From Fibrobacterota bacterium (GTDB lineage Bacteria; Fibrobacterota; Fibrobacteria; UBA11236), in NCBI GenBank assembly GCA_019509785.1, contig JAEKLQ010000054.1, forward strand, positions 1 to 64,000: 64,000 nt of DNA, in the 5' to 3' direction. The number at the start of each line of letters is the position of its first letter. Position 1 is the first letter of the stretch. Positions 33,256 through 43,336 of this stretch are shown piece after piece. The notes under the pieces were generated by a model. The model was not told where the DNA came from, did no database searches, and worked only from the letters and a program-made list of their open reading frames with translations. The translations under genes and the position numbers were made by a program.

Positions 33256-34161
33256 TTAAACGCTCTTGGCGGACTTGGCCGTCGAGGCGACGGGAAAATA
33301 TCCCAGGCCGCGGAGGTTTTCGGTGATCCGCGCGGAGGAGTGGGACTGGTTGAGGGAATAGAGATGGATACCGGCGATGCCGTTACGCAGCAGATCGTCG
33401 CATTGCCGGGTCGCGAATTCCACCCCGCGCGCCTGGACGGCGGCCGCGTCTCCGGTTCCCAAATGGGATACCAGCGAGTCGGGAATCACGCAACCCGATA
33501 GCTCCCGGAAGCGCGTGATCTGCCCCAGGTTGAGAACCGGCATGATGCCGGCCACGAAAGGGAAGCGGACGCCCGCAGCCGCGCACTTATCCCGGAAGCG
33601 GTAGAAGTTTTCGTTATCGAAGAACATTTGGCTGATCGTGAATTGGGCCCCGTTGTCCTGCTTAAGCTTCAGGTAATCGATATCCGATTCCAGGCTGCCC
33701 GCTTCCACGTGCTTCTCGGGGTAGTGGGCGCAGGCGATGTTTAAGCCGAACCGGCCATTGATGAATCGGATCAGATCCGAGGCATGCGCGAAGCCGTCGG
33801 GATGGGGCTTGAAGGCGGCATCGCCTTTAGGCGGATCGCCGCGCAGGGCCAGGACGTTCCGGATGCCCGCCGTCTCTAGGGTGGCGAGGATGCCGGCCAA
33901 CTCCTCCCGGGAGTGGCCGACGCAAGTGAGATGCGCGACCGATTCGATGCCCAGTTCGTTTTGGATACGCCCGACCAGATCCACGGTCTTGGTGCGCGTG
34001 GAACCGCCTGCGCCATAGGTAACGGATATGTAGTCGGGGGCGAGCTTGGAGAGTTCGCCTAAGGTTCCGTATAAGGTGCCCCAGCCCGCGGGATTCTTGG
34101 GAGGGAAGAGTTCGTAGGAAAGCGTTGGGACGCCGGCGTGCAGTTTTTCGAGCAGGGCCAT
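33256..34161 (-). CDS. metF: 5,10-methylenetetrahydrofolate reductase
   Basis: Reduces methylene-THF to methyl-THF for methionine synthesis. 301 residues, a FAD-binding TIM barrel of normal length. Conserved blocks: TLSYELFPPKNPAGW (catalytic Glu), SVTYGAGGSTRTKTVDL, AHLTCVGHSREEL, NVLALRGDPPKGD and GAQFTISQMFFDNENFYRF. First gene of metF-aminotransferase-methyltransferase. The 162-bp gap upstream, shared with the divergent MauE/DoxX gene, shows no recognisable SAM or cobalamin riboswitch. Confidence 0.97.
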   Translation of the reverse strand: MALLEKLHAGVPTLSYELFPPKNPAGWGTLYGTLGELSKLAPDYISVTYGAGGSTRTKTVDLVGRIQNELGIESVAHLTCVGHSREELAGILATLETAGIRNVLALRGDPPKGDAAFKPHPDGFAHASDLIRFINGRFGLNIACAHYPEKHVEAGSLESDIDYLKLKQDNGAQFTISQMFFDNENFYRFRDKCAAAGVRFPFVAGIMPVLNLGQITRFRELSGCVIPDSLVSHLGTGDAAAVQARGVEFATRQCDDLLRNGIAGIHLYSLNQSHSSARITENLRGLGYFPVASTAKSAKSV

Positions 34162-34323: not shown

Positions 34324-35037
34324 ATGAAAAAAGCGGTATTCGCGGGTGCGGTTCTCTTTTCCGGAGCCTTGGCGGCCATCAACAATCTCCTCAGCGGCCA
34401 CTCCGTCGCGTGGTTCGGTTCGCCCGAGGTGCTTCCCAAACCCGAAGGCTGGCCCACCCTGACGGTGGCCGAGGGCCTCAAGGCCGGGATCAAGGTGGCT
34501 TTACACGATTTCCGGGCGCATCAAGGCGCGATACTGGCAGGATTGGCCATCATATTAGTGGCCATGGTCTACCTGAACCGATCCCGTAAGGCGGGAGTAG
34601 GTCCCATGCTCCGGACGGTCCTGCGCTTGGGGCTCGGTAGCATGTTCTTGATAGCCGCTTACCCCAAGTTCTCCGACCCCAAAGGCTTCGCCACCTTGGT
34701 GGCGCAATACCAATTACTGCCTGCCTTCGCCGTCGATGCCTTCTCCATATGGCTGCCCGCTTTCGAGATCACGGTAGGCCTGGGGCTAATCCTCACTCTC
34801 TGGGAACAGGAATTCGCCCTCCTGATCGGCGTACTCTTGGTGATGTTCATCGTCGCTTTGGGGCAAGCGTTACTGCGCAATCTCGGCATCGCCTGCGGTT
34901 GCTTCGATATCGAGGGCGCCACGGACGCGGGGGAGTCCTGGTTCTCCCTGGTACGCGATCTGGTCCTGCTTCTACCGGTGGCCTGGATGATCCTAACGGG
35001 CGGCCGCCGCTACATCCATTGGGGCAGGAACCGCTAA
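34324..35037 (+). CDS. MauE/DoxX-like integral membrane protein
   Basis: 237 residues with about six hydrophobic segments. The C-terminal half is MauE/DoxX-like: LRLGLGSMFLIAAYPKFSDPKGF, then LPAFEITVGLGLIL and LRNLGIACGCFDIEG, the CxCFD element seen in MauE-like proteins linked to thiol or quinone redox chemistry. The N-terminal part (AGVLFSGALAAINNLLSGHSVAWFG) adds one helix. No ribosome site of note precedes ATG 34324. Partner and substrate are unknown. Confidence 0.8.
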   Translation: MKKAVFAGAVLFSGALAAINNLLSGHSVAWFGSPEVLPKPEGWPTLTVAEGLKAGIKVALHDFRAHQGAILAGLAIILVAMVYLNRSRKAGVGPMLRTVLRLGLGSMFLIAAYPKFSDPKGFATLVAQYQLLPAFAVDAFSIWLPAFEITVGLGLILTLWEQEFALLIGVLLVMFIVALGQALLRNLGIACGCFDIEGATDAGESWFSLVRDLVLLLPVAWMILTGGRRYIHWGRNR

Positions 35038-35184: not shown

Positions 35185-36138
35185 CTGAGCTATTTACCGT
35201 TACGGCATGCGGCCATTGGCCTGCTTGCCTTGGCCACGTCCTCCCGTGCCTTTGACCTATTCCTATCCGCTTCCGAAGGCTATACCCATTACGATGCCAA
35301 GGATTTCAATCGCGTTCTCCTTCTCATGGAGAAGACCACCAAGGAAAAGGGATTCAATCCGTACGACGTACGCCAGTTCAACGGGCATCCCCAGAACGCC
35401 CTGGTATTGGGCGCGAAGCAAGGGCCTTGGAGCCTTGGGTTGGAAGCGGAATTCTGGGTGGAAACCTTCGGGCAAAGCGAAGTCCCCTTCGATCTGGAAG
35501 AGGCGGAACGTAATTACCGCGTGACTTGCGCGGACTTGCGCGACCCCAATTATAAGCCATCCAGTTTGTACGGTTGTATCGAGGCGCAAGAGGTCTTCGA
35601 CTTCCTTCCCATTACCTTGCAATTATCTTACTCGCGCCAGCCCTGGCGATGGCTGAGGGTGGGCGCGGGTTATGGGTTAGGCGTGCTCGCGGGTTCGGCC
35701 CATATCGAAATGACGGCCAAGTACTACGGCGCCGGCGCCGCTCCCGATGATCATATCCGTTTCGATATCTGGCCCGGCATCAACCCCGTGCAGAAGGCGT
35801 TCCTCGATCTGGAATACCTGCCGACCTTCGCCAGCTGGGTGGGACTCGACTGGCGCACCGGTTGGCGCATTTCCAACGTGCAGGGGCTGACCTTGCGGAA
35901 CCAGCAGGGAGACTCGAAAATCTTCAAAAGCGTATTCCCGGACGCCAACAACGGGGCGCACATGTACTTCGAATCCTTCACGGCCAATCCCGATGATGAT
36001 AAGATCTACGTAGGCACCGAAGAGCAGGCGAAGGCCAAGGCCCAAGCGGCGCCCAATACCCGCTTCCATCTCGTGAACGGGGATTTCACCGGCTGGTTCG
36101 TGGCCCTGAAGCTCAATTTCTATTGGAGGGACATATGA
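35185..36138 (+). CDS. Exported, probable outer-membrane beta-barrel protein; apparent CTG start
   Basis: 317 residues. CTG 35185 is chosen because a strong GGGAGGA site lies exactly 6 bp upstream (35172-35178) and the reading begins a complete signal peptide (SYLPLRHAAIGLLALATSSRA, cleaved before FDLF). ATG is absent in frame here; the next in-frame start, TTG 35230, has no site and would cut the signal peptide. Mature strands alternate aromatic and polar residues (LGLEAEFWVET, ITLQLSYSRQPWRWLRVGAGYGLG, VGLDWRTGWRIS) and the chain ends FVALKLNFYWRDI with aromatic residues, as barrel proteins do. Its stop overlaps the next start by 4 bp. Confidence 0.72.
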   Translation: MSYLPLRHAAIGLLALATSSRAFDLFLSASEGYTHYDAKDFNRVLLLMEKTTKEKGFNPYDVRQFNGHPQNALVLGAKQGPWSLGLEAEFWVETFGQSEVPFDLEEAERNYRVTCADLRDPNYKPSSLYGCIEAQEVFDFLPITLQLSYSRQPWRWLRVGAGYGLGVLAGSAHIEMTAKYYGAGAAPDDHIRFDIWPGINPVQKAFLDLEYLPTFASWVGLDWRTGWRISNVQGLTLRNQQGDSKIFKSVFPDANNGAHMYFESFTANPDDDKIYVGTEEQAKAKAQAAPNTRFHLVNGDFTGWFVALKLNFYWRDI

Positions 36139-37271
36139 CCCCGGTCCGCAACCGCAAAGATCCCATCCATGCCGTGGCGATCAAGGCCGGGGTGGCGTTG
36201 GCCCTGGCATTACTGGCCATCGCCTGCTCCAAGGTCCAGTCGGATTTCGGCAGCACCGGCGCGGTAGTCCCCAAAGACACCGTGGCCCTCTCGGCCGCTT
36301 CTCCTGCCGATACCTTACGAATGGCCACCTTGAACATGTGCGTCGGCTTTCCCGTGTCGCAACTGGTCTTCACCGACATGGCCGTGCCCGAAACCGCGTA
36401 CGCGGCCCTTACCAAGCTCTACGACCGCTATCTCCAGACGCGGGCCAAGGATCGCATGAAAGGGATGGCGCACGCTATCGACTCCCTGCATCTCGACGTC
36501 GTCGGCCTCCAGGAAGTGCTTTACTTCAAGCGCAATGGCGTGCTGATCGACGACTACCTCCAGGAATTGGTCGATTCCATCAAGGCCGATGGAGGCCCGG
36601 CCTATATCGTCTATCCGATCCCGCTCAACGATACGGTTCTCACCGGGAGCAAGGGCGACAGTTCCATCCGCATCGATTTCCATGAAGGCAACGCTCTGCT
36701 CATCAATCCCGCCTTCAATATCCTTGAGAAGGACAGCCTGCGGTATTTCAACGTCTTCCGGTTATCATCGGACAATCCCACCGAATCCATCCGCGCCCTG
36801 GGGTACGCGAAATTCCGAACCCCCAAAGGCGTCACCTGGCAGGTCTATACCACCCATCTCGAAGTCTTCGAGGACGTGAGCAGCAATCAAGCGGCGGAGC
36901 TGGTGAAATTCCAGCAAGCCGAGCAAGTAAAAGATTCCAGAGGAAAGACTGCCGTGGCGCAGGTGGTGCTGGGCGATTTCAACATCGATCCGGGAAGCGG
37001 CGCCCACCGCATCCTCACGGACGCCGGATTTTCGGATACCTACGATTCCACCGTGGAAGCCGACGGTAGTTCTTGCTGCGTGGCGTCCAGCGCGCTCTGG
37101 GATACCACGGCCGGCTGGTCCACCCGGCGCATCGATTTCATCATGGCGCGCCATTGGGTCAAGACCGTGGAACATGCTACCGCCCTGCACGGCCCTTTCA
37201 CCGCCGGGAATGGAACGCGGCTGTTAGCCACCGATCATCGCATGGTGCGGGCGGTGCTGGTGGCGCAGTGA
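36135..37271 (+). CDS. Lipoprotein of the endonuclease/exonuclease/phosphatase (EEP) fold
   Basis: 378 residues from ATG 36135, which overlaps the upstream stop (ATGA). The hydrophobic start ends in lipobox LAIAC, so Cys31 should be lipidated. The EEP active site is complete: Asn66 (TLNMC), Glu127 (VGLQEV), His241 (TTHLEV), Asp281/Asn283 (LGDFNIDPG) and Asp367/His368 (ATDHRMV). Family members include DNase I-like nucleases, sphingomyelinases and inositol phosphatases, so the substrate could be extracellular DNA or a phospholipid headgroup. It sits between a likely outer-membrane protein and a PD-(D/E)XK protein. Confidence 0.85.
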   Translation: MTPVRNRKDPIHAVAIKAGVALALALLAIACSKVQSDFGSTGAVVPKDTVALSAASPADTLRMATLNMCVGFPVSQLVFTDMAVPETAYAALTKLYDRYLQTRAKDRMKGMAHAIDSLHLDVVGLQEVLYFKRNGVLIDDYLQELVDSIKADGGPAYIVYPIPLNDTVLTGSKGDSSIRIDFHEGNALLINPAFNILEKDSLRYFNVFRLSSDNPTESIRALGYAKFRTPKGVTWQVYTTHLEVFEDVSSNQAAELVKFQQAEQVKDSRGKTAVAQVVLGDFNIDPGSGAHRILTDAGFSDTYDSTVEADGSSCCVASSALWDTTAGWSTRRIDFIMARHWVKTVEHATALHGPFTAGNGTRLLATDHRMVRAVLVAQ

Positions 37272-37702
37272 CATCCGATCCGGGGGAAGATGCGGAAGGA
37301 TTATTCGATCCCATCCGCAAGCGCCGGGTGGCCGCCACCCCGGAAGAACGGGTTCGTCAGGCGGTGATCCGTTATCTCGTGGATACGGTAGGCGTGCCGG
37401 CGAATCTCATCGGAGTGGAGTTTTCCCTGGCGAATTTGGAACCGGGCAACTTCCATCGCGTGGACGTGGTGGCCTGGCGGCCGGGGGAAGGCCAGCTTGC
37501 CCCATGGCTACTGGTGGAATGCAAAGAGCCTGGGTGTCGCATCGACGATGATGTGGCCTGGCAGGCGGCCGGATATCTGAAACGGATTCCCTGCCGCTAC
37601 GTGATGTTGACGAACGGAAAGGTTACGCGCGTGCTTGAGCGCGAGGGAGAAGGATACGTGATAACGGCTGGGCTGCCGTACTTTCCTCCATCCCATCCCT
37701 GA
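37268..37702 (+). CDS. Stand-alone PD-(D/E)XK protein similar to type I restriction HsdR N-terminus
   Basis: 144 residues from GTG 37268, which overlaps the EEP stop (GTGA). The core ERVRQAVIRYLVDTVGVPANLIGVEFSL, then HRVDVVAW (Asp66) and WLLVECKEP (Glu84, Lys86), match the nuclease domain at the head of HsdR and related small proteins. Downstream residues AWQAAGYLKRIPCRYVMLTNG are also typical. Unlike HsdR it has no helicase domains. No signal peptide, so cytoplasmic. The coupling to two exported proteins is unusual. Confidence 0.82.
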   Translation: MTSDPGEDAEGLFDPIRKRRVAATPEERVRQAVIRYLVDTVGVPANLIGVEFSLANLEPGNFHRVDVVAWRPGEGQLAPWLLVECKEPGCRIDDDVAWQAAGYLKRIPCRYVMLTNGKVTRVLEREGEGYVITAGLPYFPPSHP

Positions 37703-42061: not shown

Positions 42062-43336
42062 ATGACGAAGATGAACACCGCGGCCGCCGCTTGCGGCGCC
42101 GCCCTCATCGCCTGCATTGCCGGCAAGCCCGGGTACGCCCACGACGAAAGGGAATGGGGCATGTCGCGCGAACGCGGACATGGCTACGAGGTGCAGGTCG
42201 GCGTGCGCCCGTACTACCTGATCAACAATATGGATGAGGGGCCTCTCAAGAAAAAGCTGCAATCTTGCGAGGACGATGAAAACCATGTCACCGGATTTTC
42301 CATCGGGCACCGTGGGGGCGGAACCCTCATGTTCCCCGAAGAGACCAAGGAATCGTACGAGGCGGGCGCGCGCATGGGAGCCGGCGTCCTGGAATGCGAC
42401 GTCACCTTCACCAAGGACCAGGAACTGGTGTGCCGGCACGATCAATGCGATCTCGCCACCACCACCAACGTCCTTACCATTCCGGCCTTGGCTTCCAAGT
42501 GCAGCGAGACCTTCAGCCCTTACGACCCGGCCACCGGCAGGCCGGCCTCGGCGAAGTGCTGTACCAGCGATTTTACCTTGGCCGAGTTCAAGTCCTTGTG
42601 CGGGAAGATGGACGGATTCAATCCCAAGGCCTCCACCCCGCAGGAGTTCCAGCAAGGAACGCCTGCCTTCCGTACCGATATGTACGCGACCTGCGGAACC
42701 GTGCTGAGCCATAAGGAAAGCATCCGCCTGATCGACAGCTTGGGCCGGAACTTCACGCCCGAGGTGAAGACTCCGGTGGTGAAGATGCCGTTCCAAGGAA
42801 CCTTCACCCAGGAAAAATTCGCCCAGAAGATGATCGACGAATATAAGGAAATGCGCATCGATCCCAAGCGGGTTTTCGCGCAATCCTTCCTGTACGACGA
42901 CATCAAGTACTTCATTCGGTATGAGCCCAAATTCGGAAAGCAGGCGGTATTCCTCGATGCCCTGGTGGACTCCGCCGACGGATACAACCGTAGCCTGGCG
43001 CGCTTGCCCTCGTTGGTGAAGGATGGCGTGCGCATCGTGGCCCCGCCGACCTGGGTGCTGGTGAAACTGGATGCCAACGGCAAAATCGTACCCTCGGAAT
43101 GGGCCATGAAGGCCAAGTCGCTGGGCTTGGACATCATCACTTGGACCTTGGAACGGTCCGGTCCCTTGGCCACCGGAGGCGGCTATTACTACCAGTCGTT
43201 GGCTCCCGCAATCAATAACGATGGCGATGAGTTCGCGATGTTGGACGTGCTGGCCCGCAAGGTGGGCATTCTCGGGGTGTTCTCGGATTGGGCGGGAACC
43301 GTGACGTACTATGCAAATTGCATGGGATTGAAATAA
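42062..43336 (+). CDS. Exported glycerophosphodiester phosphodiesterase
   Basis: Hydrolyses glycerophosphodiesters such as deacylated phospholipids to sn-glycerol 3-phosphate and an alcohol. 424 residues with a signal peptide (about 1-27, [21 protein letters not shown]). The GDPD barrel starts [23 protein letters not shown], followed by [17 protein letters not shown] with the metal-binding Glu/Asp and the second His. Several Cys pairs ([24 protein letters not shown]) sit in an insertion and may form disulfides in the periplasm. Ribosome site AAAGGAGG is near perfect. Confidence 0.92.

Follow-up and report, generated by a model that had tools for sequence, protein, structure and literature searches.

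A rare gene pair for a predicted outer-membrane barrel and an EEP lipoprotein adjoins a probably unrelated core PD-(D/E)XK gene in Fibrobacterota

Introduction

Does a run of three overlapping genes in a Fibrobacterota genome encode a single three-part system, or does it bring together genes of separate function? The question arises at positions 35,185 to 37,702 of a 64,000-nucleotide stretch of DNA (contig JAEKLQ010000054.1 of assembly GCA_019509785.1; the whole stretch is referred to as the window). A preliminary description, made from the sequence alone, had read this locus as a coupled operon for an outer-membrane protein, an EEP lipoprotein and a PD-(D/E)XK protein, and had suggested a DNA-uptake, nutrient-scavenging or defence module. 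The genes discussed here are the following.

33256–34161, minus strand: methylenetetrahydrofolate reductase (MTHFR; PF02219, 295 bits), the divergent flank
34324–35037, plus strand: membrane protein of the MauE/DoxX family (PF07291, 82.8 bits), upstream of the trio
35185–36138, plus strand: ORF 1, predicted barrel gene, 317 aa, with a signal peptide and a predicted CTG start codon
36135–37271, plus strand: ORF 2, EEP lipoprotein gene, 378 aa, with a complete active site
37268–37702, plus strand: ORF 3, HSDR_N_2 gene, 144 aa, a stand-alone PD-(D/E)XK protein
42062–43336, same strand as ORFs 1 and 2 and 5 kb downstream of them: glycerophosphodiester phosphodiesterase (GDPD; PF03009), whose product is apparently exported (apparent signal peptide)

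All three ORFs are intact, and their coordinates bear out the described 4-bp overlaps at both joins, ATGA between ORF 1 and ORF 2 and GTGA between ORF 2 and ORF 3. The genes adjoining the trio encode MauE, MTHFR, an aminotransferase and an arginine decarboxylase. We consider it likely that the locus combines an accessory barrel/EEP phosphoester cassette with an unrelated housekeeping HSDR_N_2 gene in one transcript. Genes that overlap tightly in a single genome need not be related, and the analysis presented here distinguishes the barrel and EEP lipoprotein genes, a real and conserved pair, from a core gene.

Results

The barrel protein and the EEP lipoprotein

The ORF 1 product carries a signal peptide (AIGLLALATSSRA), and searches of Pfam, NCBIfam, PADLOC and PHROGs gave no significant match for it. 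ORF 1 is nevertheless a real gene, since relatives with 27–77% identity exist. Modelling with AlphaFold, based on eight relatives, gives a small beta-barrel of long antiparallel strands (mean pLDDT 82). In Foldseek the model matches outer-membrane proteins, with OmpA-type barrels as the best among solved structures (E about 1e-4, target TM-score about 0.6). On the basis of this model, we predict that the product is a small outer-membrane beta-barrel. The resemblance to OmpA-type barrels lies in the predicted fold; in contrast to them, the ORF 1 product shows no sequence similarity, lacks the OmpA C-terminal domain, and has longer loops and a helical insert. The barrel family is present in nine of 168 Fibrobacterota genomes and in no others of the 168. 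In a scan limited to two peptide patterns, the records matching the close barrel alignment were all Fibrobacterota metagenome assemblies, and they include contigs of the genus-mates G002, G003 and G005.

For the middle product, the preliminary description had reported a complete EEP active site and a lipobox, and both are confirmed. ORF 2 matches PF03372 at 36.4 bits, above the curated cut-off of 24.5, and contains the full catalytic set used here to define membership of the EEP superfamily (Asn, Glu, His, GDxN, Asp and Asp-His). Residues N67, E127, H241, D281, N283, D334, D367 and H368 are invariant in seven relatives. The hydrophobic N-terminal segment ends in the lipobox LLAIAC31, which marks the product, by its sequence, as a bacterial lipoprotein; C31 is likewise invariant in all seven. 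Because every aligned EEP protein keeps both the lipobox cysteine and the complete catalytic set, the ORF 2 product is likely to be an active, membrane-anchored enzyme.

The model of ORF 2 matches Bacteroides EEP proteins and TDP2 (Foldseek E 4e-16). A profile search returned 3teb, 3g6s, TDP2 and mannosyl-6-phosphatase (4c1r) as the closest solved EEP proteins, while neither a DNase I entry nor a sphingomyelinase entry passed E 0.01. With the solved members of PF03372 (3mpr and 3g6s from Bacteroides, 3teb from Leptotrichia, TDP2 and 4c1r), ORF 2 shares the fold, at the level of the model, together with the metal-site and catalytic residues. It differs from them in being less than 20% identical, in adding a lipobox signal peptide and in being genetically paired with a barrel. 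These profile relatives favour a phosphoesterase or phosphodiesterase acting on small or end-type substrates, although nucleic acids would also fit; membership of the EEP superfamily does not tell whether DNA, sugar phosphate or lipid is the substrate, the superfamily being too broad. Literature searches on EEP lipoproteins returned nothing relevant.

A different proposal for this enzyme is that it acts on lipid or glycan phosphoesters, as a sphingomyelinase-like protein or a sugar-phosphate phosphatase, and serves envelope remodelling rather than scavenging. The presence of 4c1r beside TDP2 among the closest solved relatives is consistent with such a role, as are the lack of a DNase I entry within E 0.01 and the apparently exported GDPD encoded in the same window (42062–43336). 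However, similarity of fold and profile does not tell substrates apart in the EEP superfamily, sphingomyelinase entries were equally missing within E 0.01, and the GDPD gene lies 5 kb away from the pair. We regard this proposal as unlikely, though credible.

Co-occurrence of the three genes across Fibrobacterota

We surveyed the three genes in 61 relatives first, and then in 168 Fibrobacterota genomes. Intact genes of the close EEP family occur in 8 of the 168, and the barrel gene lies immediately upstream in every one of these eight. The eight genomes represent four families in total: G000, G002, G003 and G005 belong to the window's genus, G012 and G014 to another family and G055 to a third, while G166 lies outside the class. 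The probability of this co-occurrence arising by chance is 7e-13, a value that does not allow for relatedness. The barrel/EEP join is a 4-bp overlap, ATGA or GTGA, in six of the eight genomes; it reads TGATG in G002, and in G055 the two genes are about 105 bp apart. The genes around the pair vary: G014 has an HrpA-type helicase and mnmA there, and G055 a PLP decarboxylase upstream. Since the two genes are always adjacent, with joins that mostly overlap and neighbours that differ, there is good evidence at the sequence level that the barrel and the EEP lipoprotein form a functional pair. G010 encodes a distant barrel relative with no adjoining EEP gene, so the barrel may also work alone.

The pairing could be taken further, with the barrel as a dedicated display partner that brings the EEP enzyme to the surface and the core HSDR_N_2 protein as an uncharacterised housekeeping nuclease. 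We consider this combination rather unlikely; if true, it would describe a two-gene surface-enzyme cassette without a named counterpart.

The distribution of the HSDR_N_2 gene is that of a core gene. It is found in 116 of the 168 genomes of the phylum, almost always in single copy and nearly always without the pair. These correspond to 116 of about 126 genomes of the class, and most class genomes without the gene are incomplete. The expectation that the three genes would stay together across genomes thus holds for the barrel and EEP genes, adjacent in eight of eight, and fails for the HSDR_N_2 gene. All three are adjacent in only four species, each of the window's genus.

These observations bear on the three-gene module envisaged in the preliminary description, in which the EEP enzyme would cut external DNA, the barrel would admit it and the PD-(D/E)XK nuclease would process it, for uptake, scavenging or defence. 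Such a module would explain why both joins overlap by 4 bp in the window species and why the trio is adjacent in four species of one genus. Against it, the HSDR_N_2 gene mostly occurs without the other two and adjoins the pair in one genus only; outside that genus it lies on other contigs than the pair (G012, G014 and G055) or was not detected in a genome that has the pair (G166). The EEP/HSDR_N_2 overlap is itself confined to the window species and is replaced by gaps of 5–22 bp in the sister species G003, G005 and G002. In addition, a small OmpA-type barrel offers no obvious channel for DNA, and the PADLOC matches are partial and low-scoring. We found no evidence for a DNA-uptake or defence function: no full-length defence model matched, and the adjacent genes include no competence genes and no secretin. 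The three-gene module is not supported by these results and appears improbable. The trio probably consists of two unrelated units rather than a new three-part system, although its adjacency in four species could reflect a recent functional link.

Known anti-phage defence systems were considered separately and rejected, the matches being N-terminal and partial, to MTase_I and mad2 (PADLOC/NCBIfam). The PHROGs search matched no viral family of known function.

The HSDR_N_2 protein

As the preliminary description had stated, the last gene encodes an HsdR-type nuclease core without a helicase. ORF 3 (144 aa) matches PF13588 (HSDR_N_2) and nothing else, at 66 bits against a cut-off of 25, and it has the D and E-x-K site of PD-(D/E)XK proteins. 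D66, E84, K86, Q99 and a PEExxR motif are invariant in 13 aligned copies from Fibrobacteria. Stand-alone HSDR_N_2 genes also occur in Bacteroides finegoldii and Parabacteroides distasonis, beside the genes for AMP nucleosidase and holA. Their products, of about 150 aa, are 30–31% identical to ORF 3 over nearly the full length and share with it a motif of the D(P/V)IRK..VA.TPEE.VRQ type, whereas the E-x-K site reads EYK in both Bacteroidota copies and ECK in ORF 3. The genomic setting differs as well, with AMP nucleosidase and holA in Bacteroidota, MauE and MTHFR in the window's family and an aminotransferase in some other Fibrobacteria.

The possibility that ORF 3 is what remains of a type I restriction system, a broken hsdR, would fit its match to the N-terminal HSDR_N_2 domain alone, but it is ruled out, with a negligible residual probability, by full-length conservation across two phyla: 13 Fibrobacterota and two Bacteroidota proteins are of similar length, the D...ExK residues are intact and invariant, and no hsdM, hsdS or helicase gene adjoins ORF 3. 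The HSDR_N_2 protein is instead an old core protein of Fibrobacterota and Bacteroidota, and its fold family suggests a cytoplasmic DNA-processing nuclease. No described function for it was found in the searched literature.

Proposed organization of the locus

The reading that we favour, a barrel/EEP cassette next to an unrelated housekeeping gene, would involve two units. The first would be a two-gene cassette that encodes a small, OmpA-like barrel of the outer membrane together with a lipid-anchored EEP enzyme, a metal-dependent phosphoesterase or phosphodiesterase translated from the overlapping second gene, with the barrel acting as its partner or anchor. We infer the membrane side and the substrate of this enzyme: the pair would act on envelope phosphoesters, which could be nucleic acid ends, sugar phosphates or head groups, and we lean towards phosphoester hydrolysis at the envelope as its reaction. 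Phosphate or nutrient scavenging would be the purpose of the pair. The second unit would be a cytoplasmic PD-(D/E)XK protein of the Fibrobacterota/Bacteroidota kind; the overlap of its gene start with the EEP gene would have arisen in the window species. The pair and the HSDR_N_2 gene probably share one transcript.

Taken this way, the pair is rare and real but modest, and the trio is probably an ordinary arrangement and not a new system. Possibly of greater interest is the HSDR_N_2 protein, a near-universal, mostly single-copy PD-(D/E)XK protein of Fibrobacteria with a conserved active site and relatives in Bacteroidota.

Start codon, leader and promoter of the barrel gene

In the window's genus, translation of the barrel gene is predicted to start at a conserved CTG. 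The gene begins with CTG at 35185–35187, and likewise in G005 and G003; G002 has a CTG at the equivalent place, preceded two codons earlier by an ATG. The stretch from the preceding stop codon to the signal peptide contains no canonical start in the window, and the first canonical in-frame start, TTG at 35230, would remove the signal peptide. A GGAGG sequence is located 6–8 nt upstream of each barrel-gene CTG. Shine-Dalgarno use is weak overall in the window's genome, as judged from a 350-kb scan. A general use of Shine-Dalgarno sequences and CTG starts in this genome was rejected, as the same scan gave no CTG excess.

No conserved RNA structure was detected in the leader before the CTG (folding z-scores −1.0 to 0.6). 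The leader is preceded in G002, G003 and G005 by a promoter-like TATATTTG element (L054:5560–5660, L053:5650–5707 and L052:4090–4153), and in the window TATATTCC is found at about 35110, before the barrel gene. The TATATTTG element resembles TAnnTTTG, a Bacteroidetes promoter motif (PMC6847099 among others). Because it precedes the leader in these three genomes, the operon is probably transcribed from a promoter of its own, located downstream of MauE.

Gene order and history of the locus

In the sister genus (G006–G009), the HSDR_N_2 gene comes directly after MauE, and neither a barrel nor an EEP gene separates them. The same order is seen in the order-level relative G010, where HSDR_N_2 follows MauE at a distance of about 0.5 kb, again without barrel or EEP genes. 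In the window's genus, the pair is located exactly between MauE and HSDR_N_2, and the MTHFR flank with the MauE gene is kept in G001, G002, G006, G007 and G008. Since the sister genus has HSDR_N_2 directly after MauE, it is most likely that the pair came to separate these two genes in the window's genus. In G001, MauE is followed only by a short C-terminal EEP remnant up to the contig end (L059:9077–9249), which suggests the scar of a lost pair. G004 has neither MTHFR and MauE nor any of the three genes; this is probably an assembly gap, and the genome was not counted as a loss.

The gap between MauE and HSDR_N_2 in G010 (L060:735–1233) is filled with short repeats of the CAGTCGTCAGT / GATAACTGATAACT type.
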